Both the position numbers and the translations under genes were made by a program. The notes under the pieces are model-generated. The model saw only the letters and a list, made by a program, of their open reading frames with translations. It was not told the origin of the DNA and searched no databases. A stretch of 56,767 nt of DNA from Triparma columacea (taxonomy: Eukaryota > Sar > Bolidophyceae > Parmales > Triparmaceae), in NCBI GenBank assembly GCA_030267965.1, contig BRYA01000286.1:732-57498 (forward strand), given 5' to 3'. Each line of letters opens with the position of its first letter. Position 1 is the stretch's first letter. Shown piece by piece: positions 16,639 to 52,682 of this stretch.

Positions 16639-18048
16639 CTACTCTCCTCCCATGTCCTCCCCCCCATTGTCACCCAGCCCTGCGCTCTTGACCAAGTCCT
16701 CAAAGGTCTCCTCCTTCTCCTTTCCCTCTTCCCTGTTCAACACCTCTTTCGCCTCAAGCCTGTTGCTCGCTATTACAGTCCTCCCGCTGTCCATAGCAGT
16801 GTCGTCGCCCTCATTGTCATTCTTCCCGCCGCTCTTGTCCAGAGAGCTACCTTTCCACCTTTCTTCTTTCACCTCATTGCCGCTCATCGTATCCTCTTCC
16901 AACCCCTCAAGAGATGGCAGACTCCCAGGTACGCTGACTGTGCTCATCAAGCTCTCCCTCCTGCTCTCGCTCTCGTTCTTGTTCCTCTCATTGATTCTCA
17001 GCAGCCCCCCATTCTCACCCTTCCCTTCCTCCCCCCTACTGCTTTTCGGGCTTGCGTTGTCCAACTTTAACGTAGCGACATCCTCTACTTTAGGGCTCTT
17101 GCTAAGCATCTCGGCCTTCATTTTTTCGCTACCCTGGCTCTGCAAGCTCCTGAGGCTCCCACCCATGAGCATATCGACCCGCTTGTTGAGTGGGCTGTTT
17201 TTAGTGCTCTCCATCCTTTCCCTTTGGTCCATGGTCTTCATCTTGTCGTTGTCCCCAACCTTGATGACATCACTGACAATAAGCGCCTGAGTTATCAGAG
17301 CAATCTGCTGCTGCAAGGTGTCCACCATGAGCCTGCACTCCTGGACGCCCTCGTTGGTAGCCTTGATGCACTTGTTGAGCTCCTCCTGCTCAGCTTTTAA
17401 GTCCCTCCTCTTCTTCGTCTCGAGGTTGGAAACTTCAACCTTGTACTTTTCCATGATGATCTCCTCCATTAACTTTCTCTCCTCTGCGTACTTCCCTACG
17501 ACTTCCTCAAAGTCGTCTCTCTTAAGTATATGGAGCTCAACAAAGTTCTTCGCTCTGACATTGCACGTTCTCGTGGTGTTCAAAATGAGTGCAATCTCCC
17601 CAAAATAGTCACCCTCGTATAGCTCTTTCACTACCTTCTCAGTCTTGACGAGGTTGGAGAGATTAGGACTATCTCTTCCTTCTCCGGTCTTTCCTGAGCT
17701 GTCCACCGCATCGTCTGCGACCTTCGCGTTGCCGCCCTTCCCTTTGCCGTCCTTTCTCGTGGCAGCTTTCATGACCCCCCCCGCAAAGTTGCTGAGCTTC
17801 CTCATCCCACGAGCATACGTTTTCTTTTTCTCCTCATCGTCCCCAGAGTTCCTCCCTTCACTCATTTCCACCTCCCCAGGCAAAACGCTTACAATCTTGT
17901 TCGTAGAGAATCCTTTCTGCAACGGGAAAGCCACCCTGGGCTCCACTCTCCCTACCCTGCTTGGAACCCTCAGTGTCTTCTCCAGCCGTGTGTCTGATCC
18001 TGTGTCTGATCCCTGCGCACCCTCCTTATTCGTCCCTCCCTCTTCAGA

Positions 18049-18081
<33 letters not shown>

Positions 18082-22737: not shown

Positions 22738-24972
22738 ATGGTGCTTGGTTTATCAGGTGCTACAACGTCTGGATTACCATCCCTTGGCGGTGCTCTTGGG
22801 TACGTTTTCCCCCTCCCACTCGTTACTTTACACGCAAAGCTTGGTAGAGGCTGAGAAACCCCTCCCCCAAACACTCGGGGGGTTGTGAGGGTTTAGGTTC
22901 ATCATTTTTAACTGCTAACAAAACATAAGACGCATGCACAACGAAATACACCCATCAAATACGACCCAAACACCCCGATCAACACCTCAAACACCGGCGT
23001 TTCTAAACCTTTCCTATTACACGGTGCCCTTGATTTTGTAACAGCTTACCCCACCCCCTTTCTTCCCTCCCCTCCCCCCCCACCTACAGCCTCCCCAACC
23101 ACCACCCGGCCCATAAGCCCCAGAGGATATCATTGTACGCTAAGAAACCGAAAGCAAACAAACAGGATGGAGACGGGGTTAAACCACACCCACCAGAGGG
23201 GAGGAGCAAAAGGAAGAATGTGAGGGGTGGGGTAGGGTGGGGGAAGGGGGGGGGGGGGGGGGGGGGGGGGGANNNNNNNNNNNNNNNNNNNNNNNNNNNN
23301 NNNNNNNNNNNNNNNNNNNNNNNNNNNNNNNNNNNNNNNNNNNNNNNNNNNNNNNNNNNNNNNNNNNNNNNNNNNNNNNNNNNNNNNNNNNNNNNNNNNN
23401 NNNNNNNNNNNNNNNNNNNNNNNNNNNNNNNNNNNNNNNNNNNNNNNNNNNNNNNNNNNNNNNNNNNNNNNNNNNNNNNNNNNNNNNNNNNNNNNNNNNN
23501 NNNNNNNNNNNNNNNNNNNNNNNNNNNNNNNNNNNNNNNNNNNNNNNNNNNNNNNNNNNNNNNNNNNNNNNNNNNNNNNNNNNNNNNNNNNNNNNNNNNN
23601 NNNNNNNNNNNNNNNNNNNNNNNNNNNNNNNNNNNNNNNNNNNNNNNNNNNNNNNNNNNNNNNNNNNNNNNNNNNNNNNNNNNNNNNNNNNNNNNNNNNN
23701 NNNNNNNNNNNNNNNNNNNNNNNNNNNNNNNNNNNNNNNNNNNNNNNNNNNNNNNNNNNNNNNNNNNNNNNNNNNNNNNNNNNNNNNNNNNNNNNNNNNN
23801 NNNNNNNNNNNNNNNNNNNNNNNNNNNNNNNNNNNNNNNNNNNNNNNNNNNNNNNNNNNNNNNNNNNNNNNNNNNNNNNNNNNNNNNNNNNNNNNNNNNN
23901 NNNNNNNNNNNNNNNNNNNNNNNNNNNNNNNNNNNNNNNNNNNNNNNNNNNNNNNNNNNNNNNNNNNNNNNNNNNNNNNNNNNNNNNNNNNNNNNNNNNN
24001 NNNNNNNNNNNNNNNNNNNNNNNNNNNNNNNNNNNNNNNNNNNNNNNNNNNNNNNNNNNNNNNNNNNNNNNNNNNNNNNNNNNNNNNNNNNNNNNNNNNN
24101 NNNNNNNNNNNNNNNNNNNNNNNNNNNNNNNNNNNNNNNNNNNNNNNNNNNNNNNNNNNNNNNNNNNNNNNNNNNNNNNNNNGGAGGAGGGGGAGGGGGC
24201 GGACAAGGTCGACAAGCAGGACTCCATGATGTCCTTCATGAACTCGCAGGGTACGGGGAGGGGGGGAACGGGGAGACAGCAGGGGGGGAGGAGCGCGAGC
24301 CCGACCAACGCGGGGGGGGAGGGGGAGGGGACGGTGGTTAAGAAGACGAGGTACATGGACTTCCTTAGCATGAGGCTTACGCTGAGGAAGGACGGGGGGG
24401 GGAAACTTGAAATGGCCATGACCAAACTCAGCGACGACGGGTTCGACGCGGGGGATTGGGTCATTGGGGAGGTGAGCAGGAGACGAAGGGAGCAGCTCGT
24501 GGACCCGTTTTTGCTAAAGCTCACCTTCCCTTATCTTTCATCCCCTTCCGCTCCTCCCGCTACCCTGCCCTCTCAGGTTCCTTCAACTTACACGCCTGGA
24601 AGTGAGTTGGTCCGTAACGGCGCCGTGTCCTTCGCTGAGTTCGAGTCCGTCCACGCTACCTTGGAGGCCGAGAAAGCCCTGGCCTCTAAGATATCAAGGG
24701 AGGCCGCTAAGAAGGCCAGCCAGGTTAGGCAGACGTTGGAGGCGTTTGAGGGGTTGTACGCGAGCATCGATAAGAGCAGGGAGATGGGGTGGTCTAAGTG
24801 GAAGAGGAAGTGGAAGCACGCTTACAGGGACGTTAGGAGGGAGCTTATTTACGAAGTGTACGTCAACCAGGTAGAAAAAATGTACCCCGGGTGGATGGCG
24901 GAAACTTACGGGAAGGAGTTCACGGGACAGTTCCACATTAAGAACGGGGTGTGGGACTTGAAGAGACTGTAG
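22738..24972 (+). CDS. Unrecognised protein, interrupted by assembly gap
   Basis: Exon 1 (22738-22799) encodes MVLGLSGATTSGLPSLGGAL, and after a GTACGT...CTACAG intron exon 2 starts at 23090 and continues LPNHHPAHKPQRISLYAKK in phase. A run of 26 G (23246-23271) and then 910 Ns follow. Coding resumes at 24183 (frame read back from ADKVDKQDSMMSF) to a TAG at 24972. A 105-nt intron at 24472-24576 (GTGAGC...CCCTCTCAG) is proposed; it is a multiple of three without a stop, so retention would not break the frame. The C-terminal part has an Ala/Glu/Lys helix and a Trp-rich segment (EMGWSKWKRKWKHAY). The N terminus could be an organelle-targeting leader, but this is weak. That both sides of the gap are one gene is inferred from strand and spacing. 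Confidence 0.55.
23273..24182. other. Assembly gap (910 N)
   Basis: The run of N starts one base after a 26-base G homopolymer and probably reflects a sequencing stop at poly-G. Confidence 0.98.
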
Positions 24973-26091: not shown

Positions 26092-26834
26092 GGGGCCTGA
26101 GCTGCGGTTTGGGCCCAGACCTGATCTGAACTTTGGCCAAACCCTTTTGTCAAAGTAACAAACTTCAATGTACGTTAAAACACGCATTTTATACATATCC
26201 CACAAACATACACACAAAAGCAACAGATTATGACGTCGTTAATCCCAAACCAGGCCTAATCTTGAAAAATATCATTTCGATCTCCGTAATGAATCCACAC
26301 TGTTGCATCATTTAATACGACCATTTTAGCATCAAATTTACTTACAATACAATCAATGGATTAACACACTATACTTAACCAACAACGAATGAAAATTACG
26401 TCAAAATTACACCAAAAACGCGAAATATATCACAATGTGTCGAGAATCCTGCGGAAGACACTCCCCAAAGGTGTGATGATGCCCCCTTGTCCTAGGCGAC
26501 GCCGCTGCTTCGGGGGGGTTGATACTAAAGGGGCGACGCCTCAGAAAGAGCGGCAAAAATCAATGTCAGGCAATGGCCAAGGCAGCCACATGTTGACAAA
26601 TGACACAACACGACACAACACGACAGAACAACCCACACACAACACCACACAATAACCCACGACACCACACAATATCCCACAACACCCCACAACAACCCAC
26701 TACATACCCCTTCATAACACTCTCCAGCCAACTAACTAACCCCCCCCCCCCCCACCCCCCCACCCTCCCACCTCCCCCTCCCTCAGCTCCCATCTTTACT
26801 CCCCCCCCTTCACCCCCTAAACCCCCTTCCTAAA
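26092..26834. other. Divergent spacer with low-complexity CA repeats
   Basis: A 743-bp spacer between NDUFA1 (leftward) and AP1G1 (rightward). At 26600-26700 degenerate acaacacgacac/ccacaacacc repeats occur, followed by C-rich tracts up to the AP1G1 start. No gene is seen. Confidence 0.55.
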
Positions 26835-29489
26835 ATGTCTATTAAGCTCCGAGACCTAATTCGCTCTGTGCGGTCCTGCAAGACGGCCTCCGAGGAGCGC
26901 TCCGTCATCTCCCGTGAGTCCGCCATGATCAGAACTGCAATCAGGGAGGAAAACGACCAATTCAGGCACCGCAACGTCGCCAAGCTGCTCTTCATGCACA
27001 TGCTCGGTTACCCGACTCACTTCGGTCAGCTCGAGTGCCTGAAGCTCATCGCTAGCCCTCACTTCCCTGAGAAGAGGATCGGGTACCTCGGCCTCATGCT
27101 CCTCCTGAGCGAGGAGGCTGACGTGCTCATGCTCGCCACCAACAGCCTCAAGAACGACCTCGGTCACAGCAACCAGTACATCGTAGGTCTCGCCCTCTGC
27201 ACCATCGGCAACCTCTCAACCCCTGACATGTCCAGGGACCTCTGCACCTCCGTAGACAAGCACCTACGCTCCGGGTCACCGTACATCAGGAAGAAGGCGG
27301 CTCTGGCAATGTGCAGGTGCCTCGAGAAGTGCCCCGACATGATCGAGGACTTCACCGAGCGCATCATCGGCCTAGTCAAGGACAGGACACACGGCGTCCT
27401 CATCACCAGCACGCAACTCATGTGCAAGGTCATCGAAATCGACCCACAAGCGGGGAGGGCGGCATTCACCAGGCTTGTACCGAGCCTTGTGAGGCTCCTA
27501 CGCAACCTCCTGAGCATGGGGTACTCCCCTGAGCACGACGTAAGCGGTATCTCCGACCCCTTCCTCCAAGTATCTCTCCTCCGCCTCCTCAGACTCCTGG
27601 GTAAGGGTAACGAGGAGGCGTCAGAGGGCATGAACGACATCCTCGCCCAGGTCGCGACCAACACCGAGACCGCGAAGAACGCTGGAAACGCCATACTCTA
27701 CGAATGCGTCAACACCATCATGGAGGTTGAGAGCGAGGACGGACTTAGGGTACTGGCGATTAACATACTCGGGAGGTTCCTACTTAACAGGGACAACAAC
27801 ATAAGATACGTCGCCCTAAACACCCTCGGGAAGGTCGTGCTCCAGGACTCCGCGGCTGTGCAAAGGCACAGAGCAACCATTGTCGACTGCTTGAAGGACC
27901 CTGACATATCCATCAGAACGAGGGCGTTAGACCTTATTTTCAAACTCGTTAACAGCTCAAACGTAGAAGCGCTAACGGCGGAGCTGCTGAATTACCTGGT
28001 GGTTGCGCAGGGGGAGAACAAAGCGGACATATGCACGAAGACTTTGAAGGTTGTCGAGAACTTCTCACCTAATGATAGGTGGAGGGTTGATACCTTGATT
28101 ACCCTTTTGACTATATCCGGGAAAGACTGTAAGGACAGTGTCCTAGCCGCATCCATCGTTTACATATCGAGCAGCTCCGACGACCTTAAGGCGTACGCTA
28201 CGCACAAATTAGCCAAGGCCATGAGGGACGACGACGGCACGCAGGAGGGTCTCTTGATTGTGGCGGTTTGGTGTATCGGGGAGTTCGGGGAAATGCTCCT
28301 CCAACCATACGCGCATGAATCCGTGAGTTTCCAGCCGTTGGACGCTATGAGTATAGTAGACAGCCTGGTGGTGGTCACGAAGATGGTCAGGTGCACGCAG
28401 GCGGTTAAAAGGAGAGCGTTGACTACATTCGCTAAACTCACACAACGACTCGGACACACGGGGGACGCCGTTATCACCAAGCTGAAGATGCTCGTTAAGA
28501 AACACAGCACGAGCATGGACTTGGAGCTCCAGGTTAGGGCTTGCGAATTCTCAAACTTGATCGAGGGGAAGGCGGGACAAGGGGCACTGGCGAGGATGCC
28601 GGTGGTTGACCCGAAATTGAGACAGAGGAAGAACTTAACGAGGAAGGATAGCTTGGACATCGAGGGTATCGCAAGGGCGTCAACGCCACAGCAGGGTGGA
28701 GGAGTTGGTGGGGAGATTGATAATGGGGGAGGTGGAGGTGGAGGTGGTGGGGGTGATTTACTCGACCTAGACGACATATTCGGTGGAGGTGGAACAGTCT
28801 CAGGGGGGGGTTATCAAGTGCAGCAGCAGCAGGCTACGGTCGTACAGCAGACACAAGGGGGAGGACAAGAACAGAAGAAGAACGAAGACATTGACCTACT
28901 TAGTGATATATTCGCAGCACCCCCTGCTCCCGCTGGTACTAACAACGGGCAAACGAACGTGCTAGACATGTTCGGTGGTTCAGGTGGCGCCGTACAACCT
29001 CCCGTGGTACCAACGACACAGGGGGGTAACATCGTTGATATGTTCGCACCACAACCTACGCAGGGTGCCTTGAATACAGGTGTCGTAAGCGACTTGATAG
29101 GAGGACAGAACGGTGTCGGGGAGTCGGGGAAAGACGTAATTACGGCGTACTCTAAGGATGCTCTTACGATCAGCTTTGAATGCAGGAAAATGCCGGGCAA
29201 GGGGGAAGCTGAGGTTACCGCTGTGTTCAGGAACGGGGGGGGGAACGATATGACGGGGTTGAACTTTCAGGTCGCCGTACCTAAGTATATACAAATGGAG
29301 ATGCTACCACCGTCGAGTACGACTGTAAAGACGGGGGGGGGAGGGAAGGAGGTTACGCAGAAGATTAAGGTTAGGAATGGGATGGTGGGACAGAAGAAGA
29401 TTATGATGAAATTGAAGATTGGGTATGTGGTTGGGGGGAAGAGGATTGAAGATATGGCTACTGCTAATAACTTTCCACAGGGGTATTAA
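26835..29489 (+). CDS. AP1G1: AP-1 complex subunit gamma
   Basis: An intronless 884-residue frame starts MSIKLRDLIRSVRSCKTASEE, the standard gamma-adaptin N terminus. Residues 1-575 form the adaptin HEAT-repeat trunk (for example HFPEKRIGYLGLMLLL and NDLGHSNQYIVGLALCTIG). A flexible Gly/Gln hinge (about 590-760) carries LLDLDDIF (641) and IDLLSDIF (685), which fit clathrin-box or accessory-binding signals. From about 764 the gamma-ear begins with LTISFECRKM and the frame ends in NNFPQGY. AP-1 recruits clathrin to the trans-Golgi network and endosomes with beta, mu and sigma subunits. Length is close to animal and plant orthologues. Its G/C-rich codon use contrasts with the leftmost giant gene. 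Confidence 0.97.
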   Translation: MSIKLRDLIRSVRSCKTASEERSVISRESAMIRTAIREENDQFRHRNVAKLLFMHMLGYPTHFGQLECLKLIASPHFPEKRIGYLGLMLLLSEEADVLMLATNSLKNDLGHSNQYIVGLALCTIGNLSTPDMSRDLCTSVDKHLRSGSPYIRKKAALAMCRCLEKCPDMIEDFTERIIGLVKDRTHGVLITSTQLMCKVIEIDPQAGRAAFTRLVPSLVRLLRNLLSMGYSPEHDVSGISDPFLQVSLLRLLRLLGKGNEEASEGMNDILAQVATNTETAKNAGNAILYECVNTIMEVESEDGLRVLAINILGRFLLNRDNNIRYVALNTLGKVVLQDSAAVQRHRATIVDCLKDPDISIRTRALDLIFKLVNSSNVEALTAELLNYLVVAQGENKADICTKTLKVVENFSPNDRWRVDTLITLLTISGKDCKDSVLAASIVYISSSSDDLKAYATHKLAKAMRDDDGTQEGLLIVAVWCIGEFGEMLLQPYAHESVSFQPLDAMSIVDSLVVVTKMVRCTQAVKRRALTTFAKLTQRLGHTGDAVITKLKMLVKKHSTSMDLELQVRACEFSNLIEGKAGQGALARMPVVDPKLRQRKNLTRKDSLDIEGIARASTPQQGGGVGGEIDNGGGGGGGGGGDLLDLDDIFGGGGTVSGGGYQVQQQQATVVQQTQGGGQEQKKNEDIDLLSDIFAAPPAPAGTNNGQTNVLDMFGGSGGAVQPPVVPTTQGGNIVDMFAPQPTQGALNTGVVSDLIGGQNGVGESGKDVITAYSKDALTISFECRKMPGKGEAEVTAVFRNGGGNDMTGLNFQVAVPKYIQMEMLPPSSTTVKTGGGGKEVTQKIKVRNGMVGQKKIMMKLKIGYVVGGKRIEDMATANNFPQGY

Positions 29490-35852: not shown

Positions 35853-37092
35853 ATGAAGTTCACCATTCTCTCCATCCTCTCAGCTACCGCTCTCGCCCGC
35901 GAGAACTCAGCTGGCTTCCTTAACCGTCTTGGCGTGCCAGATCATGAGAACACCTTTGCCATCTTGAAGGCCCGCGCTGATGACGTCAACGATGATCTCT
36001 TCGTTCACGCCGAGGTCTTCACTGGAGAGAAAGCCTCAATCCCTGACACCTTCGACTCTGTTGAGAACTGGCCCGAGGTAAGAATGAGAACGAGGAAGGA
36101 AGGAACGATGAGCAAGACCTAACCCCTGCATGACACGTCGTGTCGCTCCTCCACAGTGCTCCAAGGTTATCGGGACAATCAGGGACCAGTCCAACTGCGG
36201 GTGCTGCTGGGCTTTCGGAGCTGCCTCCGCTGCCTCCGATCGCGCCTGCATCTCTTCCAACGCTACCATAGCCGTCCCCTTCTCCGCCCAGGACACCTGC
36301 TTCAACGCCCAGAGGTCCGGATGCAACGGCGGGCAGCTGGATACGCCCTGGGAGTTCTTCAAGAACGAGGGCGTCGTCACTGGAACCCAGAACCTCGTGG
36401 ACACTGCCGACACCCCCTCTGACCCATTCTTCGGAGCCAACCTTTGCTCCGCCTTCTCGCTCCCCCACTGCCACCACCACGGGCCCGAGGGACACGGGGG
36501 CGACCCCTACCCCTCGGAGGGAGACGCTGGCTGCGAGTCTCAATCCACCCCCCGTGGGCCTACCTCCTGTGACGATGGTGCCAGTGATGAGCACGGTGAC
36601 TTCAAGTCAGACAAGGTGAGAAATGAAACAATGTCAGCTTTGGCTTGTGTGCGCATAGCGATGGCAAGAGAAAGGGGAAGAGCTTCCGGAATTAATTCTC
36701 ACCCGATATTCCATTTTGCGTCATCGCAGTACTCCTTCAAGGGAACGGTTGAGTTCTACCCCAACGACGTCGCCACCATTCAGAACGCCATTATGACCGG
36801 TGGCCCCGTCGAGACCGCCTTCACCGTCTACGCAGACTTCGAGGACTACACCGGTGGAGTTTACCAGCACACCACTAATCAGTCTGTCGGCGGACACGCC
36901 GTCAGGATTGTTGGTTGGGGAACTGACGAGGAGAGCGGCCTAGACTATTGGAAGGTCGCCAACAGCTGGAACCCCTACTGGGGAGAGGAGGGGTACTTCC
37001 GCATTATCCGCGGCACCAACGAGGGAGGAATCGAGAGCCAGTGCGTCGCCTCCTCGGCGGACAGTGTCTGGGACAAGAAGTCCGCCCTTTGA
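35853..37092 (+). CDS. Cathepsin B-like cysteine protease (papain family C1A)
   Basis: Exons 35853-36077, 36157-36615 and 36730-37092 are all phase 0 and give 348 aa. A signal peptide (MKFTILSILSATALA) and a short cathepsin B-type propeptide precede the mature enzyme. Oxyanion Gln86 and nucleophile Cys92 lie in DQSNCGCCWAF, where the usual CGSCW serine is replaced by Cys91. His284 lies in GGHAVRIVGWG and Asn306 in VANSW. LPHCHHHGPEGHGGDPYP corresponds to the cathepsin B occluding loop, whose paired histidines give exopeptidase activity. It is expected in lysosomes/vacuoles or secreted. It is head-to-head with the bestrophin gene. Confidence 0.93.
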
Positions 37093-37395: not shown

Positions 37396-40300
37396 TCACC
37401 AGCACTGGAACAACCAGCAGTCACCGAAGCACGCAAGACAGTCCTTATCTCCGACGTAGCAAGAGCCCGAGTCGTCTAGTGAAGTGAAGGGGTTAGGGGG
37501 GGGCCAAAAATTGTGTAAAGGATAATTCTTCTTACCTGGGCAGTCCCCGTAATAGACCGCGCTTTTCTTGTCGCATATGGCTCCGCAATAAAAATTATCG
37601 GGGTTATAACAGTGGCTGTAGAGTGGCGAACGAAGCAAAATATGGTTAGAATTGATTTCTTATTGCACAACAGAGCTTTCGTTCTCACCTGTCCCACAAG
37701 CAATCTGGCAAACTGAAGATCGTGTCCCAGAAGTCGTAGAAAGCGTCAAGTTTCTCCCACAGGTCAAACTATATAAATGAAAGATGGGGAGATGGGGAGT
37801 TAGTCAATAAGGAATTTTGAGTCAGTGAATACAATGTCGGGGGGACGCAGTCACGATAACGACGGGTTTTCAGCTAGCCGCTGCGCTACGCTGCGCTCGC
37901 CTCCCCACCCACGCTCGCTCGCCTCCCCACCCACGCTCGCTCGCCTCCCCACCCACGCTCGCTCGCTCGCCTCTTCACCCACACCCACACCCACTCACCT
38001 CCGCCAGCTCTTTCAAGTTCATGGTCTCGATGTCCAAGTGCTGCTTGACGCCGTAGAACTTGAACTTCAACCTTAAGATGGGCCTCCCTCCAGTGGCGAG
38101 GGTGAGGAAGTTCAAGTTCTTGAACTCAATCCCGTCCATCTCAAAGAACGGTTTGTCGAAGGAGAGCCCGGAGTCCTTCTCCTTGACCTTCCTGTCGGAT
38201 TCGCTCAGCATACTAGGGTCGACGAGGCCGTCAGGCAGGATCTCCTCCAAAAGCTTTCTTCTGCTCATCTCCTCCGCAGCCTCAAGTCCCTCCTCGACCT
38301 CGAACTTGAAGTCCATCTTCTGCAAGTCGGAGTCCCAGAGGAACGCCATAACGATGGAGCAGTCGATTCCAAAGATCTCCAGTCCAGTGCTGAAGGCGAA
38401 CCCAGGATCATATTTCTTCCCGAACATCTCAATCTCCCCGCTGCTTAGCTGGAAGAACGTGTCGTACAGGCCCCACGTAGCCGGGATGTCGCGAGGGTCG
38501 AATTGCCAGATCTTGCCGTCTTCCTCCTCCAGAATGTCGTCAACGTACCATATTGCCAGGTCCCTCATGCTGAACACCAGTCCAAACCCGTCATTCCCTG
38601 TTCCCCTCAAGCCTCCGTACAACAAGGCGTCCTTACTAGGCAAACCTAAATCCGTGATTCCCGCCCTGCCGGTCAGGAACACAATTACCGGTCCAATCTC
38701 GAGCTTCGCAGCAAGTCCAATGTTGCACGCCATGCTTCCAAGGTCAGGCTTGCCCGAAGTGATTCCGATGCTCACTCCAGCCTCCAACAGCACAAGCCCG
38801 TCTATTCCGAAGGCGTTCTCCCACCTTGTCCTAACCCTTCCTTCCAAAGTTGCCTCCTCTGTGCCCTTAATTCTCACCCAGACATCGATCCAAATCCTCG
38901 GGTTGTTCTCCAGCGTTAAGACAACCTGACCGTGCACCTCGAGCTCAGGCGGCTTCCCGTTGTACACTTCAATCCTCACAGTGTTGCTGTTAGTCGGGGA
39001 GGAAATGAGGCGAAGAAGGGAGGAGTTAGCTGAGGTCGCACGCTTCGCTCCTCCCGTTGGGCAGTTTTCCTCTCTTGTCACTCCAATCTCTCCATCACTT
39101 CACTGTCCCCCGTCGCCCCGCTCCCCCCCTTACCCCCCCCCACCCTCCACCAAACTTACCACCACAAAACTCCCTCGTAGATACTGAACTGATTCGCCTC
39201 AATCCAGGCCGTCACCGCCCATTTGTTAGCGTCCAATATGGGTACGTGAATACCGGCCTGGAAAAGTGGACTGTAACCTGAGATTTCGCTGTACTCATTC
39301 ACGTAATTGAGCATGCTCAATCCCTTGTCCAGTGAACCCATCTCCCTGACGTTTATGTTGACAACCATTTGCACTCCCTTCCTGAAGCTCATATCACCGT
39401 CGTACTTGTCAAACGTGCTGTACGTGAAGTCCCAGAGCGTGTTCTTGAGCCACCCGGGCATCCTGAACTCCGAAAGCCACTCCCTCTCCCCCCCCGGAGT
39501 AACCCCCGTGGCAGCCTCACTCTCTGAACACATGACTTTCCACACTTCGAAATCAACAACCCCTCCAGTCCAGCTATTCGCGTCCATTCCCATCTTCTGC
39601 TTTTTAAACTCGATCACAGCCTCCTGGGTCGCTTCGTCGAATCTCCCGGCAAAGTACTCCTCACTCCCAAGATCTACAAATCCTACGTCTTCAAGAAGCT
39701 GCTGCATGAAGGTCACATTCTTCCCAGAATCGCCGAAATTCAACTCTACCCTCGGAACCGTCGTTCCACTCCCGCACGTCTGATCTCCAAGTCTCCTAAC
39801 TTCCTCCAAGTACCTCCTTCCCCCCTCCCCAACCTCGTCCTTCCCTAGAATCTCATTCACGGCAAGCGACGGTGGCTTGTTGATCTCGTAGAAGAACTGC
39901 ACGCGAATATACATCAGGTTAGTATACGAACCCTCAGAGTCCCTCACGAACGCAGCCGCCAGCCTCCCTGCGAAGGTGAAACCGATGATTCCTGTGCCGC
40001 GGAACTTGCAGCTATCTACAACAAACCAGTCCGTGGTGTTCTGAACGAAGTTAAAGTCGACGCCCAGGTTGGCAACCGCGAGCCATTCTAAACCAAAAGG
40101 TTCGTACCATATGCCATACATGTTGGCGGCGATCTTGAGAGGGGAGCCCTCCGCGATGAGTAGGATCTCGTCTCTATTGGAGGGTCTGAAGATGATGGTG
40201 GTCTTGGCGAAGAGCCACGGCCACGCTGACCTCGCAGAGTTGAACTTCGCCCCCACGAGCCAGTCAACAATTGTGACAAGACCATTCCCAAACACAATGT

Positions 40301-43300
40301 TCGCGCCATCGTTCCTCACGGAAATTTCCATGGGTGGTATGCTCTTGTAGTTGTGGAAAATGCCCACCCAGAACTCAATGTCCAGCTCACTTCTCGCCCC
40401 AACAAAGGCGCCGATCATGGTGTTGAGCATCTTGCTGTCTTCCGGCGAAACAGCGTCGTCGAGCGTTCTGTTGTAGTTCAAAAGGTTCATCTTGAACGTT
40501 ATGCCCTTCCTTATTCCCTTGCCCAGAATGTCAAAGCCGCTAGCGTATTGCCTCTTCTCCACAGTCGACAACGAAAACCAGATGTCGGAGCTCGTCTGCG
40601 TCTCCTCCAAATACTTCCCAGCCTGCGTATTATTTATCTCATCCTTGGTACCCGTCGCCGACCCCAAAAGGTAGTTGAAGAAGACGTTGGCACCCTGCAG
40701 CCTAGCCACCAAAACCACCTCGTTACCGCCGTCCGCCACCTCCGCGGAGACCTTCACGCTCAAGGTTGCATTGTAATGGAACGTGGTGTGCAGGAACATG
40801 AAGATCCTCGTCTCATTCCAGTTCAAATCGGATGTCGTGGAGACGTCCATAGTGGCGGCGTTGACCGTCATGAAGTCTAAGCCGAAGGGGTGCACCCAGG
40901 GTTCTCTGGTAGCCCCGTGGAGGTCGATCATGTAGCGTGACGAGTTTGACCCAGGGACCGACCCCGCGCTCCCTTCAATCTCTGTCGCCTTGCCGCTCAC
41001 CTCAAAGGCGAGGGTGCTGCCGTCGAATAAGTCGACTCGGAAGTCGCACTCGACGAGGATCATATGGAGAGTGAGGGAGTCCGGGTCTATCATTTGCATC
41101 GACAGCTTCGCGCTCCCCGTCGACACCCCCCCGTCCGGCTTGTTGGTGCACGTGGTCTTTCCGGCATCACCCGGGTTGCGGCCTGCGACTGGCCCCCCCT
41201 TGGTCGTGCACACGGTGATCTGGTCGCTAATCTTCGTTGTGTCGGTTGTGTACCCGTACGCGTTCCTCGGAGGCTCCGCCCTCGTTGTGCACACAGTGTC
41301 CTTGTACTCGCTCCCTTCCACTGCAACTTCCTCGCACGAAGTTTTAGTGCCCGGCATGGCGTAGTAGTCCGTGTTGACCATTAGCGTGAGCTCGGTTGGG
41401 TGCCTCGCGCTCCTCGTGTCTGGCATAACCAGCTCTAGGTCCAAGTACATCTCGTGAACCTGCAATCAGCGAAGCGATGGGTGAATCGAATCGCGAAGGG
41501 TTAAGGGTCAGTATTAGGGACGTGAAGGGGCATCGCGAGGAGGAACGCGCAACAACTCATTATTCTGGAGCTATTCCATTCCCTCCGCTCCTCGTCGCCT
41601 CTCCTCTCCCCTAGCATCTTGCCCCCTAGCCGCACTCACCTTGTTGTCCAAAAGTCTCCAAACCTGGACGATGTTGCTGTCAGGGCCGGCCATGATCTTG
41701 ATCCTGACCCTCGAGCCACTCATCTTGTCAGCTGGATCCCTGTACATGTTGCACTCCTGGCTATAGCTCCCGATACTCAAAGTGGTGGTGTAGTTCTCAT
41801 GCGTGCCACCCCTTCCGTCAATGTGAGTGTAGTTCAAATCTTTCCACTCCACCTCTCCAGTCTTGTTGTTCACCATGCGCCTGTCCACGTCGAGCATGAT
41901 TCCGTGCTTTCCATCTTCCGCCATCAGGAAGTTGTTGGCCGCCTCTGTACCGTTCTCTCCTATGAAGATGTCCATCATGACCCTCTGAATGGTGAAGACA
42001 GGGATATCGTAGAGCATCCAACAGAACTAAGACGAGAGATTTGTTGCGAAGTGGCAACCGAAGAGAGGTTTGAGAGGTATTCGGTTAGTTGCGAAAAATA
42101 ATATAATGTAATACTCAACCCTATCCAAGGTTTGCTGCGCTCGCCAACCCCTCGCGCCTCCCCCCCTCGCCCCTTACCTGCTCCATATCCCTGCTCGACG
42201 TGCCCTTGAAGTAGGCCCTCATGGTCTCCCCCTTTGCCGTTCCCCTTGGGTCAAAGGTGATGTCGAATATGCCCTCCATGGACATGTACTCAGTCACGCC
42301 GTCCTCCAACTTCAACTTGAAGTCCAACTTGGCCTTTGGGTCAACGGTGATGAGGTTGTTGTTGAAGGGCCAGAACTCCTTCACCGACACGGAGGAGAAG
42401 TTAGCCTGGGAGTATTTCTGGTCCAGAGAGCCCTCGCTGTACATGCCGGAGATGTCAGTGAGGAGAGGATGCGAGTGATTCTCGTAAAACTTCAGCTGCA
42501 TCCTTGCATCAAGGCCGAACTCCTGAGGCGAGAAGTCATAGACGGTGAAGACGGGTCCCCACAAGGACATCCTCTCCTGAACGGTAAAGTTCTTGGTCAT
42601 GAGGGCTAACTTATCAACCTCGATATCACCCTCCTCCTCGGTCTCCTCATTGTCACTGAAGTATATGTGGATCTCAGGATTCGCGAGGTACAAATCGATG
42701 CCCATGGGGTTCCAGTAGAAGGACTGCGAGAGCTTGGACTTGGCATTCGCAGTCCAGTCGTCGTCGATGGAAACTGTGCCGTTAACTACTTCAAGGTCAA
42801 AGTCTCCTTCGACCGTCGTTATAATGGGGGCCTCTAGGTTCGGAAGTTGAACAGAGATTGTCGTACCGAGCTGAATTTGGAATTCCATGTCCCTCTCCGC
42901 GTTAGGGATCATGAGGCCTCGGCAGTAGAACTCGAACCCGAGGATCTGCACTCCGGGGAACACGTCGAGATTCTTGCCCTCGATCCACAGGTACAACGTA
43001 GGGTAAGTGTCCTCCTTCTTTTCCCTGTCTGCAGTGTAATCCACCGAGAACCTTAGCTTAAACTTTACCCTCATATCACACTCCGTCCCACACTCCTCGT
43101 CCTTCTCCACCGTGGTTGCCTCAGGCTCGAGGCTCGACATGGTTGACACAAGGGAGCTGTTCTCGTCAATGCGACCGGTAGCCTGAAGGTTGAACCCACG
43201 GTGAACCTGGTAACGGCCGGAGTCAGCAAAATTGGAGAACGTGATGTCAACGTCGTCGAGGTGCATGTGGAAGACGGGGTTGAGCTGCGCGACGGCATCG

Positions 43301-46300
43301 GGATTGGCAGATTCGTTGTAAAGTCCTTGAAAGACGGTCTCGAGGTTGTGAATCGAAATGTTCGACGCCCTCACGAAGGACATCTGCCCGTCGTTGAGGG
43401 CAACGTACTCCGCCGCCATCTCCCCGTAGGTGAAGGTGGACGTGAAGTACCCTATGGTCTCGAACCTGTACGGTTGGGGGGTGGGGGGAGGAGCAAAGCG
43501 ACGACCGAAGGGTATTAGCAAATGAAATGTCTAAAATCGTTTAACATCCGCTCGCCACACTCACCTCGTTATGATGAGCTCGGGGGCACTGATGATGCAA
43601 AGTACTCGGCCTCTCTCCATCTGCAGCACCTCCTGCCCTAGAGGGTGGAAAGGCAAGACGGACCGTCCGGTCAACTGGAGAATGTTGGAGTCCGTGTCGT
43701 ACTTGCCTCCCAGCTTGAGCTTGATTGTTTCGTTTGCGCCCGCTAAGAAGGAGTCAGTGATTATCATGCAGGTGTTGATCTCAAAGGCCCAGGAAGCGTT
43801 CTTGTTGCTCTCCATGTGGACCTTCAACATCCCGTCTTCGATGACGAACTTGTTGCCCAACTTCGTGTTGTTGAGCCTGAACTCCCCGTCGAACGACCAC
43901 GTCGAGTTGAGGTCGGTGGCAAGCAGTAGCTTCCAGGAGGTGTCGAGGGAGGCATTCTTGAGCTGAGGAAGAAGAGGGCTCACAGGCTCGAACACTGCGT
44001 CACTCTTCAACGTCCCTTCGAGGCCGGCGGTTGCTATATTCGTCTTGCTGTTGTACGTCAGTTCGACCTGGGAAGTAGCGTCGACACTAAAGTTGAGGGC
44101 GGGGAAGTTCGGAAGGAAGTCATCGATTCGATAAGTCTGTATGCCTCCGATGACCGCGTAGTAGTAGTCGAGGTCTTCCGTGAAGGTCGTCTTAATGTAG
44201 TGCGAGATGAGGACGTTCTCCGAATAGCGGACGTCAGCATCACCGTCCATCCTGGCCTTGACAACGGTGAAGTTGGAATTGGGCTGCGTCTCGTTCCTTC
44301 GCATGTCGATGTAAGCCAGCGCGCCGGTCACGTTGACAATAGACGTATTCGAGGGAGGGGGGAAGAGGATCTGCCAAGGGTTGTAGATGTCCCTCATGAG
44401 GTACGCCGTCACTCTGAGCGACGTCTGGGCCTTGGTGAAGTTCGTCTGCCCGAGGGCCTTCCACCTCTGGTCAAACATCCTAAAGATACTGCTCGAGATG
44501 ACCTTCAGGTCGCTGTTACTCGCGCGATCGACCAGGAGCTCAAACTCCTCAACCAAGATAGGACCGATGTAGAAGTTCTTGGCAGCGAGCATAAAGCGGA
44601 TATCCGTGTTGTTCCATCGAGGGTTTGTGAGGGATGTCTCAATCTGAGACATGAGCGGGCGGGGGGATAGCGAGAGGGAGAGGCGGGAGGAAGGATTAGC
44701 AAAAAGAAACATCGGATTCAAACCCACTTACGTTGCAACTCACCTCACAAATGATGTCAACCTCGGTAGGCTTGATGTTCAGCATGTCGAGGATTGAAAC
44801 GAGCTCCCAAACGAACTCGATATCGACCCGCACGCGGAACTTTAGGCTGTCCTTCTTGGAATCGACCTCAATCTTGGACTGGGTCGAGACCTCCAATCGC
44901 TCGGGGTCCGTCTCGTTCTTGATGGTTACGTTGTTGAGGGCGTCAGGCATGAGGTGCTTCGTCTCGGCCTCGTCTAGGCTGAGGATGGAGGAAACGGCTT
45001 CGACAATGTTGCTAAAGTTCGCAGCAATGCTGAACTTGTAATCCCCAGTAAGGCCGTCAACGTCGCCCGACGTCATGGCCCAGATCTCCGAGCTCGTGTT
45101 GTTCACGTAGACCGAGCCAGCACACTGCCTCCACATTGCCTTCCCTGCTTCCCAGTCAGTCACGTTCTTGTACTTGCCCGTGCCAGTCCTCGCCTCGAGC
45201 GTGACCTTGATGAAGCAGGAAGGGTGAATTTCTATGTTGGGCGTAACCCACAGCGAATCCGTCAGCCTCGTCGAAACGGTGAGGGCCGTGTTCTGGTCTT
45301 TTCCAAAGCTGTGACGAACAAAGCGGTTAGAGTAAGTAGAAATTAATTACGCAAGCTCAACTTGCCCTCAGCTTTCCCCTTTCACAATGGCTCGCTTCGC
45401 TCCTCCTTACCTCCCCTGGCCCACGAGCAGCAGGCTTGTTTGGTTATTGCCGCCGTTGTTGGCGTTGCCCATGCTCTTTAAGTACCACTCAAGCTCGAAG
45501 ACGTAAAGGACCTTGGTGTTGAAGTCTTCGCCAACTACGAAGACGCGGTTTAGGAACACACTGGGTGCGAGCATGAGACCCTCACCAAGGAAGGTCACGT
45601 TTACGGCGATGGTCCTGTTGCCATCAGTCGGAAAGATCCCTAGGATCTCAATCCCGACCTCAGCAGTGCCGGCGCTGTCCCCAAAGACGTTCAGGCGCTG
45701 CATGAGGGAGGGCTTGGCGATAGCAGCGGCCTTGACCACCGTCCCGTCAATGCAGTCAATGTTATTCTCGTGACCTGTCACGTTTTGATCGAACCTTGAA
45801 GGGATGGCCTCGTGCCGCGTAGAGACAGCGTCTCTGCCAGTGGAAGGGGTCGTGCCTGGTCGGGCGGTGCCGCTGTCCTCCCTTCCACTCCCCCTCTCAG
45901 GAACGATGGGCGTGGGCTCGGGCCTCTTGTCCGGAACTAGCGGGATCAAACTGGCGCCTCCAGCGTGGTCCTCTTCACCGGGAAGGTTGAAGGTGGCGAA
46001 TCCTTCGTCACCTCTTCCTCTACCTCGCTCCGTGCTCTCGTCCCTAAGGACTCGAAGGACCCTACTTACGCCAGTAGAAAGGGGAGCGTCAAGGAAGTGT
46101 GAATAGTCGTGGAACCTGCGGGGGAAGCGGGGTGAGTAGTTAGTCGGTGCTGAGGCGTTGATGTGTTGTCTGAAGGCATCCAAAAACTCGCCCTTACCTA
46201 TCACTAGCGTGCACCCAGTTCCTCCTGTGAGTCTTGTGCGCCCTGTCTCTCCACTCTAGCCTCTCTTGCAACATTCTGCCCCTCCCACCATCGTCAGGTA

Positions 46301-49300
46301 CGAATATTTCAAAGCTCTCGTCTCCCCTTCTTGGAGGATCCGGAGTCGGCCTCGTGGGCAGCCTCGGCGGGGGCCTGGGTCTCTCCTCCGGCACCACGAC
46401 AGCGAGCCCCCTTCCGTCGTCAGTAGGCCTGACCTCGATCTCCGGAGGGGCCCTCGGGTCCCTCTTCTTCCTTGCGATCCTCTTGCTTGCCACGCACATG
46501 TCAAACCGAGCCTCCACCAACGTAGTGTCGTTAGCAGAGGGTATAGTGGAGTTACTCTTGGGCATGATGAGGTTCACGTCCCCGTCCAAAGGCCCGAGAG
46601 TCGCCCCGAGGATGAAGTAAGAGTCGCCCCCGTGCGGATCGAACATCCCTGTGACTTCAGCGAGAAGCACATTGGTGTCAACCTCATCTGTGAGCTGCAT
46701 CTGCCCGTTGGCGTTGTACGCAATGGGGTCAAAAGTCCAGTTCCCGTTCTCGTGCTCTGCGTAAACGTGCACCTTGCCCTTGGTCAGGGCAACCTGGGGG
46801 GTGACCATCCAGACCTCGGCGAGGTCCAATGTTGCGTCAACAGAAGTGAAGTTCCTATAAGGGTCGTAGTAGCCAACGTAGGTGCTGTTGACTTTCAGGG
46901 GTGAGGTGGAGTTGGAACTGAATTCGAAGATGCTTTTGCCAGACGCAGACATGTTGAACCTCGGATTGGGTTCAAGGTCGCTGAGCTTTGCAACGGCAAG
47001 CCACTGTACGTCGCGCATGCTGTACGAGTCAGTGAAGTCCAGCTTGTCCACCTTGGCTCCGAGGGAGAACATGTAGGCGGACTCGTTGGATCCGCGGTAG
47101 AGTTCCCTGGCGGCGAACTTCATTTCAACCTCTGTGTTCTCGGCTCCCATAAAGCTAGTAGGTGAAAGCTCAGACCTCACCCTGGCTTCGATGCGGAAGT
47201 ACTCTCCTTGGGTCGCAAGGTGAAGCTTTACCCGGGTGTCGACAGTCTTGTTCTCGACTTCGGTAATGTATGACAGGGTGTCGTTCTGCGAGTCGGTACA
47301 GTATTGGGTTGGGAAAATTTACATTATTACTTGACAAGTTGCCGCGTTTCTTTCTGATGCTCCTTCCTGGACCATCCCACCCCCTTCCCTTCTCACCTTC
47401 ACCGTAAGGGAACGATCGGCAATCTCCTTAACCTTGTACTGGCTCTCAACGTGCAGCATAAGATCGATGCTGTAGTAATCGGGCCTCCTGTAGTTCAGTT
47501 CTCCGTGGCCGTCGACACCACCGATTGCAAATTCTGGGGTGGCCCAAATTCTCAGCGTCTCAATGATAAAGGTAGTCTGCCCGAGATTCACGCTTCCCGT
47601 CAGCCCACCCTGGTTGAAGGTCATCCAGTCTGCCCTCTTGGGGGTGTAAGGTTCGATCAAATAGCCACTAAATGTGCTGAGAGTCGTGGCGTTAGGATTC
47701 TTGAGGGAGAACTTCGGAACCTTGAAGTACGTGTGGAGGGACATGATGGTTTTGTCGGTGAAATTCAGGTGCATATCGGAGTCAAAGTTGCAAGTCAAAA
47801 ACTGTGAATGATTGGGGAGAGAGGTTGCGACGGGGGAAGGGTTGCGTTAGTGAGTGGGTGCGTCGCGTCCCTGACGAATTGTTGCCACGTTACTGTGCTA
47901 TACGTGCCAAATTGCGCATCGCCTTCTCACCTGATCCTTCACATGTACGAAGAGATTTGCATCCTTGAGGACGTGGTTGCTGGACGTGACAACCTCGTCA
48001 ACGTGGCCGTCGAGCTTGAATTCAAACCTGGAAAAATTACCAGGCAAGAACCTGGCTGTTGTTGTGTTCCAATCAAAGGGAATGTGCGTCTCTATGTTGA
48101 AGTACACCCCCGTCATTAGGGGCCCCAGCTGGTTCGTCATTGTCATGACCGCCCTCATGGCAAATGTCAAACCCATATCCTCTGGAAAGGTCGAAAATGT
48201 AAAGTTCGCCAGGAAGAGGGACTCCACCTCGTCGTCGGATAGTTTCAGTGCGGCGGTTGATGTAGGTGCAGGTGCAGGCGCAGGCGCAGGCACACGTGAA
48301 GTTGGAGCAGTCGTTCTAGAAGGAGAAGGTGCAGCCATAGAAGGAGCAGTCGTGCGAGCGGGAGGGGTAGGAGTTGACGGCCTCCCTGGACTTGCAGTCG
48401 GAGCAACGGTAGTGGGCGTCCAAGTGTCGCCCCCCCTGTCGTCATCGGTACTATCATCGTCCTCAGGGTCCATTCCTGGGATCCAGTCTGCATCTTCGTC
48501 ATCATCTCCTCCCCTGCCAGGGAAAAAATCTATAATGCCGCTGCTCCCGCAGTCTCTACCGCGGGGACAAGGAGTCGGCGCAACCGTCGTTGCGACCCAC
48601 GTGTCACCACCTCTCCCCGGAGCCGAAGTTGGCGGGGTGCTGCCCCTTCCGGGAGTGCTACTTCCCCTCATCGACCTTGTCCGAACAGCGACTCGATCCT
48701 CCGCGGCGGCGTCGGCAAAGGGCGGCGGTTCGCCACCAGTATCCTCCGGGGGAGCAACCTCAGCAAGAGTGGACTTGAAGGAGGTTACCATGACGTTGTG
48801 CGCGGTGAACCTGAACGCCCTTAGGTCACCATACGCAAAGAAGTCGATAGGGATCCGACTCTCCGTGAGCCCAACCTTCAGACCGAGGATTCCAGAGACC
48901 CACACCCTGTCGATCTTGGGGAGCCATACGGTAGAACAATTCTACGGCGAGCAAATTGGGAGTCGCGGGAAAAGTAGAGTTAGTTTAAAAGTAAAGCAAG
49001 GTGGTAAAAAGCTTTTTGCTACTTGTCCATTCACTCACCTTCCAGCCCGTTGGAGACCCCGGGTCAGGCTGACGGAACTTGGCATTCGCGTCAGTATCGT
49101 CGTATCCGTTTCCGTGCCTCTTGACGCATGTAGTATTGACATAATCGATCTTGATGCGACCGTCCGTCAACGTCCACTGCCACTTGTCCTCCTCCTCCTC
49201 TCCAAAAGTCAAGACTGAGGGAGGCGGTTCGGCTCCAAAGGCGACCGTGTACATGTTGTCAGCCTCGGCGCCATTGAGGCCAAAGCAATGGTGCTTATAG

Positions 49301-52300
49301 CCGTTCGTTCTCCTCCAGTACACGAAATATCTGTCTAAATCGACGTCCCACGAGTTTGAAGTGGCAAGAAGCTCGACGTGCTCTATCCTCTCGTAGCCCT
49401 TGCTGATCCAGTAAGGCACGATGAGGAGGTTGGCATCCACAAGAACGTAGATGGCGGGAGTGCTGATTTTGGTCATAATGCAGAAGAGGTTGTCATCGGA
49501 GTACTTGTTGAAGATTCCGGGCCAGCGGGCGTCCTCATTCGAGGGTATGACCGTCGTCATATTCTGCAAGAACTTGGGCATTGGCTTCGTCCAGGTGTAA
49601 GCCCTATCGTTGTAGACAGGGGTATCGGGTTGAAGCGCGCCAATTACATAAGGCGTCGACTGCGTGGTCTGGAGGGTGACGTTGACTATGGCCTTGAAGA
49701 AAGGTGTCTCGGTAGTGTTGCGCGCAAAGACCGGCCAGTCATCGCAGAAGTCTGTGACGAGCAAAGGGAGAATCGCGATTAGGACGTTTGCGTTTGCGTT
49801 AGTTTGAAGCATTGTCTCAATTTGCCGTTAGCAATTCTTACCTCCCTCCCCATTCTCGTCGACTTCCACTTGGGTTGGATATCCTCCAATAGGAAGAGTT
49901 ATGACAATTCCTTCCCTATCCGTCTCGTTCCTCGTCCCATCCGTGTCAGGCGTCTCGATGGTCGTGACAACCTCGTCAATGTCCACCGTAGTGTTTCCTG
50001 TCTCGCCGATCTCTGCTCCCAGGTCAATTTGCTCATCTCCCGGGTTGAGTTTCTCCCTAATTTTCCAGAAGGGAACGTTGTCAGGGTCGCAATGCAGGTT
50101 CGCAGTGAAGCTGAACGTGACGTCGAGCTCGGGATTGCGGATGAAGCGAGTCGCGGTCCGGTTCACGAACAGGGCCTCGCCGGAAACCTCAAGCCAGGCT
50201 TTGGAAGCAAGTTCCCAGCCATAATGCTGGGGCGGAGTGCCAGCAGGAGGAACGCCAACGACGTAAGTAGCAACAAGCGAATTGTGCTTCACCTTGATGT
50301 CCTTGATGAATTTGGGGGCCCTGTAGCATGTGAGGCGGTAGATTTCAAAGAAGGAGGCTCCAACTTCTGGGATGGTGAAGGTCAAGGTTCCGTCAAATGC
50401 AACCGAAACTGTAACGTCAGAGTTCTGGTAGTCCCCACTTTTAGTTTTGTAGAGGGCGGTGGTTGGAAGGGATATCCTTCCGGTTCCCCGAGACTCCTCT
50501 AGAGCTGGGAGCGTCGCCTTCCCAGTGATGGTATACGACTCAATGACAAAAGGGTGAAGAGCAGACACCATGGAGGCCGCCGAGCTTGAGGCCGACGGAG
50601 TTTTCAGCATTGCAGCCGACTCTTTCTTAGACGTCCAGTACTTGAGGACACCCATCCCATTCTCAAACTTGACGGGAAAAGGGGAAAGGTCGAGACGGTT
50701 GAAGTCGACGTTTTCCCTGAGAGGGCCTCCGATCAAGTAGCTGCGGAGGCCGCATAGAGTGGAATCGAGGACCGGAGTGAACTTCGAAGGAATAAGGTCG
50801 ATCTCCGTCTTACTATGCCTGGAGGAGATGATCCCCGATTCAATGGAGAGGACGGGGATGCCAAAGAGCTCGTCCATGGTCGCCCTAACATTGGAGAGGG
50901 TGAGGTCAGGAGTGAGGTAGACCTCGTCGTCCTGAAGGATAGTGCGGATGAACACCTTGTCCATGGGACAGGGAAGTGTATCGAGAATAAGCTCAAGTTC
51001 ATGGTCAATTTCGTTGTTGCCTCCATTGACTCCTCCACCGCCTATATGGTGCAGCAGCGGCGAGGCGACGCGAGTCGGGGGAGAATTGAGGTCAGTATAA
51101 GATTTCCAATGTGAAACCCCAGGAGCTCCTTCCCCTTTCCTCACCTCCATCTTCTCCATTCCCCCCACCCCCTCCCCCACCGTCATCGCTTCCATTGAGG
51201 CCCAAGGGGTCGACGTCGGTCGTGTACTGTAGGCAAAGCACAACTCCAACGCACATAGAGACGAGAGCGAAGATCAATCTCAAGGTATAAATCTGCGAAC
51301 GAAATTGGGGTTGGATTCGGTGGCAAAAAGCGCGCCCATAATTTTCTCGTGCAACCTCACCTTGCTCTTTCTCGCATTGGACCACACATCTTCTGTCTTA
51401 TGTTTGACACTGGAAAAGTTGTCAACGATGGCGTCCTCTAGGTGGTTCGCGACTGTGAAAGTTCTATTGTTCCGTCTGCGAAAAGCGAGAAAGCCGTAGA
51501 CAGACGATTGTTTTAGACATTTTCTTCCATCATCCAAAGTGATTGCAAAGATTCGGCAACAGCCTCTCTTACCTTGCCTCGTCCCTCTTTTTCCTCCTCC
51601 TGTACTCCTTCTCTTTTCTCCTCTGGCGACGGATCCTCTTCCGCTCCTCTTCCGATAGCTTCTCGAGGTCAGTCATTTCAGTCTCTACCTCCTCATTGTC
51701 AGCCTCATCGTCCTTGTACCAGTAGCTACCTAGTGTAGGCCTCCTGAGTTTCCTGACAGCCGCTGTCATCCGCCTAAGCCTCTGCTTCCTGGAGTCCGGG
51801 TCTTGGTACGCTTCGGCCATGGGGTTGGTGGTAAAGTTTCCAACGTCATCCCCCAACGTTGTTGTTTTCCTCTCTTCGAGGCCGAGAGTGATGCTCCTCT
51901 CCTTCGTCGTGGCAAGAGCATCGCTGTCCTGATCCACAGAGTCCGAATCGAAGGAGTCGGAAGACATGGTCGACTTCCTGTTGGCTTGCTGCTTCTGCAA
52001 CTCGAGCAATTTCCTAGACTGTATCGATGCCATGGTACCCTTTCTACCCTTCGCCTTCTTTGTGCTGGGGGACGCCATCTTCTGGTGACCTGTGATATCG
52101 ACTGAGGGGCGAAACGTAACCTCGGAACTCTTTGTGTCAACGGAATCAAAGCTGGAGGCTCCATTGGTATCAAAGGACGCAGCAAATCCGGCCATTTTCT
52201 TCTTCTCCTTCTTCTTGTTCTTCAACGCGAAGGAAGAGGGGGCAGATGCACCGTCGCCGCTCAAAGACTCGAAGCTTCCGTTCGACGAAGACTTTGTAAT

Positions 52301-52682
52301 GCTGCTGAGCTCAGCGCCCAAGGTCCCCATGGAAGCCTGAGTTGCCAACGCTCTGGTAGCGTTACTGGCTTCTTCCAAGTCTTCAGTAATGTCATTAGTG
52401 TGGTCAGTCCAAGTCTGAGTGCATGAGAGAGAGGGAGGTAGAGTGGGGGGGGCGGCGGAAGTCAGGAAAACTAGACTGAAGAGAGAAGAGAACCCGGACA
52501 AGTTAGCAGTTACTTACCACGCGACCCTCTATAGTGTTCTCAAAGTAGTTCGTTTGGTAATTTGGGTCCCAGCGCTTCACCCAACCCTGCTCCTTCACTC
52601 TGCCTTTCAATCTCTGCCACAGTGAAGCACCCCTCTTCCTCGATCCATCAGAAGACTCATTATTGTTCGACTGAGAAGACAT
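37396..52682 (-). CDS. Giant type II membrane protein with about 4,000-residue ectodomain (19 exons)
   Basis: Exons: 52682-52518, 52414-51573, 51475-51361, 51292-51145, 51041-49842, 49751-49039, 48941-47931, 47801-47397, 47285-46198, 46115-45411, 45308-44744, 44643-43565, 43465-42178, 42026-41640, 41459-39160, 38986-37999, 37768-37689, 37615-37536 and 37475-37396. They sum to 13,239 nt with correct phase at all 18 joins (4,412 aa). Residues 34-57 look like a WW domain (W34, YF46-47, W57), followed by a basic, Ser-rich cytoplasmic part. One helix (about 377-397, LRLIFALVSMCVGVVLCL) spans the membrane. The rest is rich in N-x-S/T sites and beta-strand-like repeats, with recurrent [NHE]P-[MF]-G-[IL] motifs. 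It has a Pro/Thr/acidic linker (about 1100-1290), a peptidoglycan-binding-like segment near 3810-3880 and a Cys-rich tail. No enzyme is recognised; an adhesin or cell-covering role is speculative. Confidence 0.87.
37905..37978. repeat. 22-bp intronic tandem repeat
   Basis: Three near-exact units of cctccccacccacgctcgctcg and a degenerate fourth lie between exons 16 and 17 of the giant gene, next to the exon 16 donor. Confidence 0.8.

Follow-up and report, generated by a model that had tools for sequence, protein, structure and literature searches.

A giant, predicted type II membrane protein of Triparma columacea with a beta-rich ectodomain and a conserved ten-cysteine tail

Does the long chain of coding segments on the minus strand at 37396..52682 of the window (the whole stretch of DNA analysed here, 56,767 nucleotides from contig BRYA01000286.1 of Triparma columacea) make up a single gene, and what kind of protein would such a gene encode? 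Giant surface proteins of unsolved fold occur in many protists, and to our knowledge few of them can be demonstrated from sequence as one gene with a conserved architecture. The initial annotation had joined 19 exons by hand into one continuous frame of 4,412 residues and proposed a type II surface protein, possibly of a new class. Here we reconstructed the gene computationally, compared it with its relatives and weighed what its ectodomain may do.

On its own, a splice-site and codon model predicted a protein of 4,408 aa in 18 exons, starting at ATG 52682 and ending at TGA 37396. The model was refined with a protein of Triparma retinervis, TrRE_jg763 (P0001), which moved the acceptor of exon 10 earlier and divided the last exon by a 60-base intron. 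The refined gene comprises 19 exons and 18 GT-AG introns on the minus strand and encodes 4,412 aa, with the ATG at 52682 and a single terminal stop (TGA 37396); the hand assembly was thereby reproduced to the residue, with zero stops inside the joined exons. The gene is also free of N (assembly gaps). Preliminary models had carried an extra 5' exon and a GC-AG intron, both false, and an acceptor of exon 10 that P0001 showed to be too late. The exons are given below, from the splice-site and codon model unless otherwise stated.

37396..52682, minus strand: whole gene, 19 exons, 4,412 aa (splice/codon model and P0001)
52518..52682, minus strand: exon 1 (ATG 52682), residues 1-55
51573..52414, minus strand: exon 2, residues 56-335, cytoplasmic
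51361..51475, minus strand: exon 3, residues 336-374
51145..51292, minus strand: exon 4, residues 375-423, contains the predicted membrane helix
49842..51041, minus strand: exon 5, residues 424-823
49039..49751, minus strand: exon 6, residues 824-1061
47931..48941, minus strand: exon 7, residues 1062-1398
47397..47801, minus strand: exon 8, residues 1399-1533
46198..47285, minus strand: exon 9, residues 1534-1895
45411..46115, minus strand: exon 10, residues 1896-2130 (acceptor set by P0001)
44744..45308, minus strand: exon 11, residues 2131-2319
43565..44643, minus strand: exon 12, residues 2320-2678
42178..43465, minus strand: exon 13, residues 2679-3108, second AlphaFold model (gene model)
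41640..42026, minus strand: exon 14, residues 3109-3237
39160..41459, minus strand: exon 15, residues 3238-4003, first AlphaFold model (gene model)
37999..38986, minus strand: exon 16, residues 4004-4333
37689..37768, minus strand: exon 17, residues 4334-4359
37536..37615, minus strand: exon 18, residues 4360-4386 (P0001-guided model)
37396..37475, minus strand: exon 19, residues 4387-4412 and stop TGA (P0001-guided model)

Elsewhere in the window, a papain-family cysteine protease (Peptidase_C1, 158 bits) lies on the plus strand at 36112-37092, tail to tail with the giant gene, and its end is separated from the stop of that gene by about 300 bases. A long open frame at 26736-29486 (plus strand) encodes an adaptin large subunit (Adaptin_N, 444 bits), and pieces of an ion channel with a cyclic nucleotide-binding domain (Ion_trans, cNMP_binding) occupy 16642-19918 on the minus strand. 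Runs of N, likely assembly gaps, are present at 23273-24182, adjoining a G-rich stretch, and at 11438-11480; these runs account for the false low-GC bin and for the long reading frames that are open in more than one frame there.

The genome (37.85 Mb, 789 contigs) was searched with four parts of the window gene and two parts of C194, and three paralogues were found, namely the window gene and those on contigs C67 and C194, along with a weak match on contig C84 (E 0.035). C67 carries a 2,009-aa open frame corresponding approximately to residues 1,267-3,508 of the window protein and an 879-aa frame corresponding to about 3,525-4,375. C194, the third copy, is more distant, with 23.0% of 3,321 aligned residues identical, and its single 2,835-aa open frame begins near window residue 868 and continues through to the stop. 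Downstream of this third paralogue on C194 (L023, about 4512-5811), the following frame contains the residues DASGSMK, which we take to resemble a putative von Willebrand A metal site. Another relative with the layout of the window protein is P0004, a 3,689-aa transcriptome protein that its source lists as complete. Comparison of these sequences indicates that the exon chain is one gene, because long open frames in the paralogues C67 and C194 cover the greater part of the ectodomain and P0004 shares the layout. At 17 of the 18 splice junctions, one homologue or more could be aligned with no more than 2 gap columns in about 20. The exception is junction 2, at residue 335, and it favours the alternative that several separate genes, or wrongly joined ones, are represented; but most junctions are crossed by the long open frames of C67 and C194, on which ground we dismissed that alternative, and P0001 and P0003 show the same order from end to end, so that it is very improbable.

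P0001 is 91.9% identical to the window protein over 4,077 aligned residues and represents the same gene, although it is devoid of some segments (a basic cytoplasmic stretch and parts of exon 5) and terminates in QCWYDAY rather than QCW. These are likely to be differences between gene models. Since TrRE_jg763 stands in public databases, the giant protein, which to the initial annotation looked previously unrecognised, is not unseen; its record there is that of an uncharacterised protein. Searches of protein databases, which require shared 5-residue words and similar length and of which some scored the best 7,984 / 7,999 candidates, retrieved P0001-P0005 and the fragments P0006 and P0007. No relatives were found among viral contigs and prokaryote genomes with one 348-residue part of the family as query, or among phages with exon 15 as query. 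A description of the family was also missing from the best matches of the literature search, and the main text of PMC10328945 contains neither 'WW domain' nor 'peptidoglycan'. As no sequence relative was found outside the giant-protein family, the designation as a new class appears fair to that extent.

The N-terminal part of the protein contains the following features.

52403..52589, minus strand: WW-like module, residues 32-59, with intron 1 inside (Pfam WW and pattern)
51818..51859, minus strand: candidate short cytoplasmic motifs TLGD and NPM, residues 241-254
51230..51292, minus strand: residues 375-395, predicted membrane helix flanked by charges of +3 (N-side) and -4 (C-side)

The WW-like cytoplasmic module was borne out by a pattern, written after inspecting the sequences, that fits 5 of 6 N-termini. 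Its Pfam WW (PF00397) score of 18.3 bits is below the curated cut-off of 26.9, and the module is missing among the 150 WW profile matches scored across the genome. It is present in all three paralogues, in a diverged form in C67. WW domains were detected elsewhere at C449:28823-28903, C449:41513-41602 and C481:17430-17519, within open frames of 5,257, 3,696 and 2,508 aa, respectively; these could be further giant WW proteins of the same genome. Residues 375-395 form the sole strong hydrophobic helix, as the single-helix claim had it. The net charge of the 20 residues on each flank ranged from +2 to +7 before the helix and from -5 to +1 after it, and was higher on the N-side in all six sequences, which favours an N-inside orientation. 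Cysteines before the helix are zero in five of the six, C194 having 3. A single N-terminal helix with an inside-positive flank predicts the topology of a type II membrane protein.

The portion beyond the helix was reported to be rich in glycosylation sites, and we counted 63 N-linked sequons in the window protein, where 200 shuffles averaged 29.0 and reached 47 at most. Sequons also exceeded the shuffle mean in P0001 (62 vs 26.4), P0002 (42 vs 20.0) and P0003 (66 vs 29.9), and lay inside the shuffle range in P0004 (30 vs 24.7), P0005 (18 vs 16.7), C67 (28 vs 18.2) and C194 (28 vs 18.0). Between the window protein and P0003, 49 of 62 aligned sequons were retained, but only 62 of 136 other Asn. 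Thus, sequon excess and selective retention belong to the window gene's own subfamily (A), other members being weakly enriched. Cysteines 448, 520, 914, 979, 1797, 2017, 2162, 3110 and 3200 are conserved in all aligned sequences (6 or 8 each). The pattern of sequons and cysteines fits an outer, glycosylated ectodomain; placement at the plasma membrane and in an endomembrane lumen would look alike by these criteria, and the surface location is putative.

The helix and the beta part are common to all three paralogues, and the ectodomain of the window protein contains two linkers.

48135..48677, minus strand: Pro/Thr/Asp-rich linker, residues about 1150-1330, without counterpart in the C67 paralogue
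45790..46463, minus strand: Pro/Arg/Gly-rich linker, residues about 1808-2005, with intron 9 inside, without counterpart in C67

The peptide ECAFPPC or near variants of it recur in the Pro/Thr-rich linkers of P0002 and P0003 and were unseen in the window protein. Strongly amphipathic strand windows were 1.8-2.7 times as frequent as in shuffles in all six ectodomains. The corresponding ratio was 2.3 for YhdP, 2.85 for TamB and 1.9 for the Ig-like YeeJ; with YeeJ in the same range, amphipathicity failed as a discriminator between a trough and an Ig-like sandwich. Two AlphaFold models (exons 13 and 15), of low confidence with a mean pLDDT of 48, consisted mostly of beta strands by DSSP. Foldseek gave zero matches at E up to 0.001 for either of these models. 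The non-significant matches listed were mainly large antiparallel sheets (the ApoB-100 belt, LptD, ushers, porins); chains of VPS13 or ATG2 type were absent among the matches listed, which excludes neither. The turn motif W-x-x-P-F-G-L, defined after looking at the sequence, occurs in 7 copies against 0.93 in shuffles. Internal repeats were weak by profile comparison, the best probability being 58.6% over a short stretch. We predict from these models and strand patterns that the ectodomain meanders as amphipathic beta strands, W-x-x-P-F-G-L turns recurring along it.

At its far end the protein carries a short cysteine-rich region.

37396..37702, minus strand: ten-cysteine C-terminal tail, residues 4356-4411 (alignment)

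All ten cysteines are retained in 7 of 7 aligned sequences (C67 excluded); the window gene and C194 have the whole tail, and in C67 its beginning can be seen. Identity was computed on aligned residues only, since P0002 and P0005 start late and the C67 model ends early. For P0003, P0004 and C194 in turn, identity to the window protein stood as follows: cytoplasmic part, 15, 24 and 20%; membrane-proximal residues 431-1000, 53, 33 and 29%; residues 2001-3400, 51-54, 35-38 and 21%; residues 3891-4333, 69, 49 and 24%; tail, 71, 61 and 43%, the highest of all regions in each. A smooth gradient of conservation from membrane to tip disappeared once missing sequences were no longer scored as mismatches. 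Conservation of the ectodomain is almost flat to about residue 3400, and the rise toward the tip therefore rests on the last thousand residues, mainly the tail. Taken together, a layout of WW-like module, inside-positive helix, long beta-rich ectodomain and ten-cysteine tail appears to be shared by the family.

The initial annotation had stated that no enzyme or standard adhesion domain accounts for most of the protein. Pfam upheld this over the greater length, but revealed one domain that had been overlooked.

39531..39728, minus strand: peptidoglycan-binding-like domain (PF01471), residues 3815-3880 (Pfam)

This PG_binding_1 match in exon 15 scored 24.4 bits against a curated cut-off of 23, agreed with the PGBD fold, and was the sole PF01471 match found in this genome. 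The same domain in P0001 of T. retinervis scored 19.5 bits, below the cut-off; scans of full-length P0002-P0005 for PG_binding_1 gave nothing with an E of 0.1 or lower, and C67 and C194 yielded no match. Identity over the stretch was 41, 41 and 36% in P0003, P0004 and C67, no better than that of its neighbours. The domain is thus marginal and would be an addition to the giant protein, its peptidoglycan binding being putative; marginal and unexceptionally conserved as it is, it cannot be the core function of the family. Other domain searches gave little: across window pieces, fragments and full-length relatives, Pfam returned just PG_binding_1, the weak WW and others far below cut-offs, with no match to AsmA-like or bridge-like lipid transfer families; NCBIfam (7 pieces) returned only a SleB match, far below cut-off, across the PGBD stretch; PHROGs (4 pieces) returned zero matches; and solved structures searched by sequence with exons 13 and 15 gave no meaningful match.

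What the protein does can be proposed only tentatively. The reading that we prefer, and hold at somewhat less than even confidence, is that of a membrane-anchored beta stalk with a ten-cysteine head for surface contact. The N-terminus would lie inside the cell, the chain would cross the membrane once, and a beta-sheet stalk of about 3,900 residues would be held outward. The conserved ten-cysteine tip may bind other cell surfaces, those of bacterial prey or the alga's own covering, with the PGBD-like domain perhaps contributing to binding in the window gene's subfamily, and the WW-like module with the TLGD and NPM motifs might connect to cytoplasmic partners for anchoring or uptake. A stalk with a specific distal head fits, at the level of sequence, the flat ectodomain and the best-conserved tail. 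Passages of PMC10328945 describe the Parmales as the sister group of diatoms and as predicted phago-mixotrophs, with bacterivory predicted for Parmales and not for the diatoms compared, and bolidomonads as eating cyanobacteria. Bacterial surfaces are therefore a natural target, and the own covering is the alternative. That the protein is instead a structural component of the covering itself (organic layer or silica plates), with the PGBD-like domain a mere spacer or glycan anchor, strikes us as unlikely: Parmales do bear silica plates, as the abstract of PMC10328945 states, and the Pro/Thr-rich linkers and numerous glycosylation sites of subfamily A suit a wall protein, but P0004 comes from MMETSP, whose bolidomonads are naked flagellates according to that article (P0004 possibly, though not certainly, being one of them), and a cytoplasmic part with a WW-like module points to a role beyond that of a passive wall component.

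The stalk reading is weakened slightly by the almost flat conservation of the ectodomain, and further by the 3 cysteines before the helix of C194, by the sequon numbers of P0004, P0005, C67 and C194, and by the fact that amphipathic strands suit a stalk and a lipid trough alike. In the boldest rival reading, which we consider doubtful, the beta part is an amphipathic trough that conveys lipids along the lumenal or extracellular face of the membrane, working like bacterial TamB and YhdP or the eukaryotic bridge-like lipid transfer proteins; the helix would then be anchored in the donor membrane and the tip docked on the acceptor, a geometry that is just as doubtful. AsmA-like proteins consist of an N-terminal anchor, a very long amphipathic beta part and an end cap, and the giant protein has that layout. 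Its strand amphipathicity is within the range of YhdP and under that of TamB, the Foldseek matches listed point mostly to large antiparallel sheets, and the almost flat conservation of the ectodomain would suit a uniform conduit. Against this, the Ig-like YeeJ falls within the same amphipathicity range, none of the Foldseek matches is significant, and hhalign comparison of profiles with TamB and YhdP attained a best probability of 1.2%, with no relation to TamB, YhdP, TamA or YeeJ by profile comparison. Moreover, we know of no lipid-trough member with conserved cysteines and N-glycan sites along its rod. The fuller proposal, a giant outer-side lipid trough of Parmales independent of those of bacteria and VPS13, with the helix as anchor, the ten-cysteine tail as dock and a bacterial-type PGBD in one subfamily, is improbable.

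Whether as stalk with head or otherwise, the three paralogues, the near-identical T. retinervis protein and the transcriptome relative together define the gene, the topology it probably has, and the distal tail as its best-conserved part. For prey contact, the only PGBD-like domain found in the genome is a candidate open to direct test. Should the beta part prove to hold lipid, lipid bridges would gain a new place and a new origin.

PG_binding_1, familiar from SleC and SleB, is present here as a single copy within 4,412 residues and is marginal or absent in relatives. ApoB-100 is a secreted protein, whereas the giant protein has a membrane helix and no Vitellogenin_N match by Pfam, in P0001-P0005 or in the scanned open frames of C67 and C194; its beta belt matched the giant models with a high rmsd and was tied with unrelated barrels. 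The AsmA-like and bridge-like proteins (TamB, YhdP, VPS13, BLTP1) have a long amphipathic beta part in common with the giant protein. The membrane anchor of TamB, YhdP and BLTP1 stands at the N-terminus, as does that of the giant protein. In contrast to these systems, the giant protein carries glycosylation sites and conserved cysteines and is predicted to be placed on the outer side in a eukaryote.
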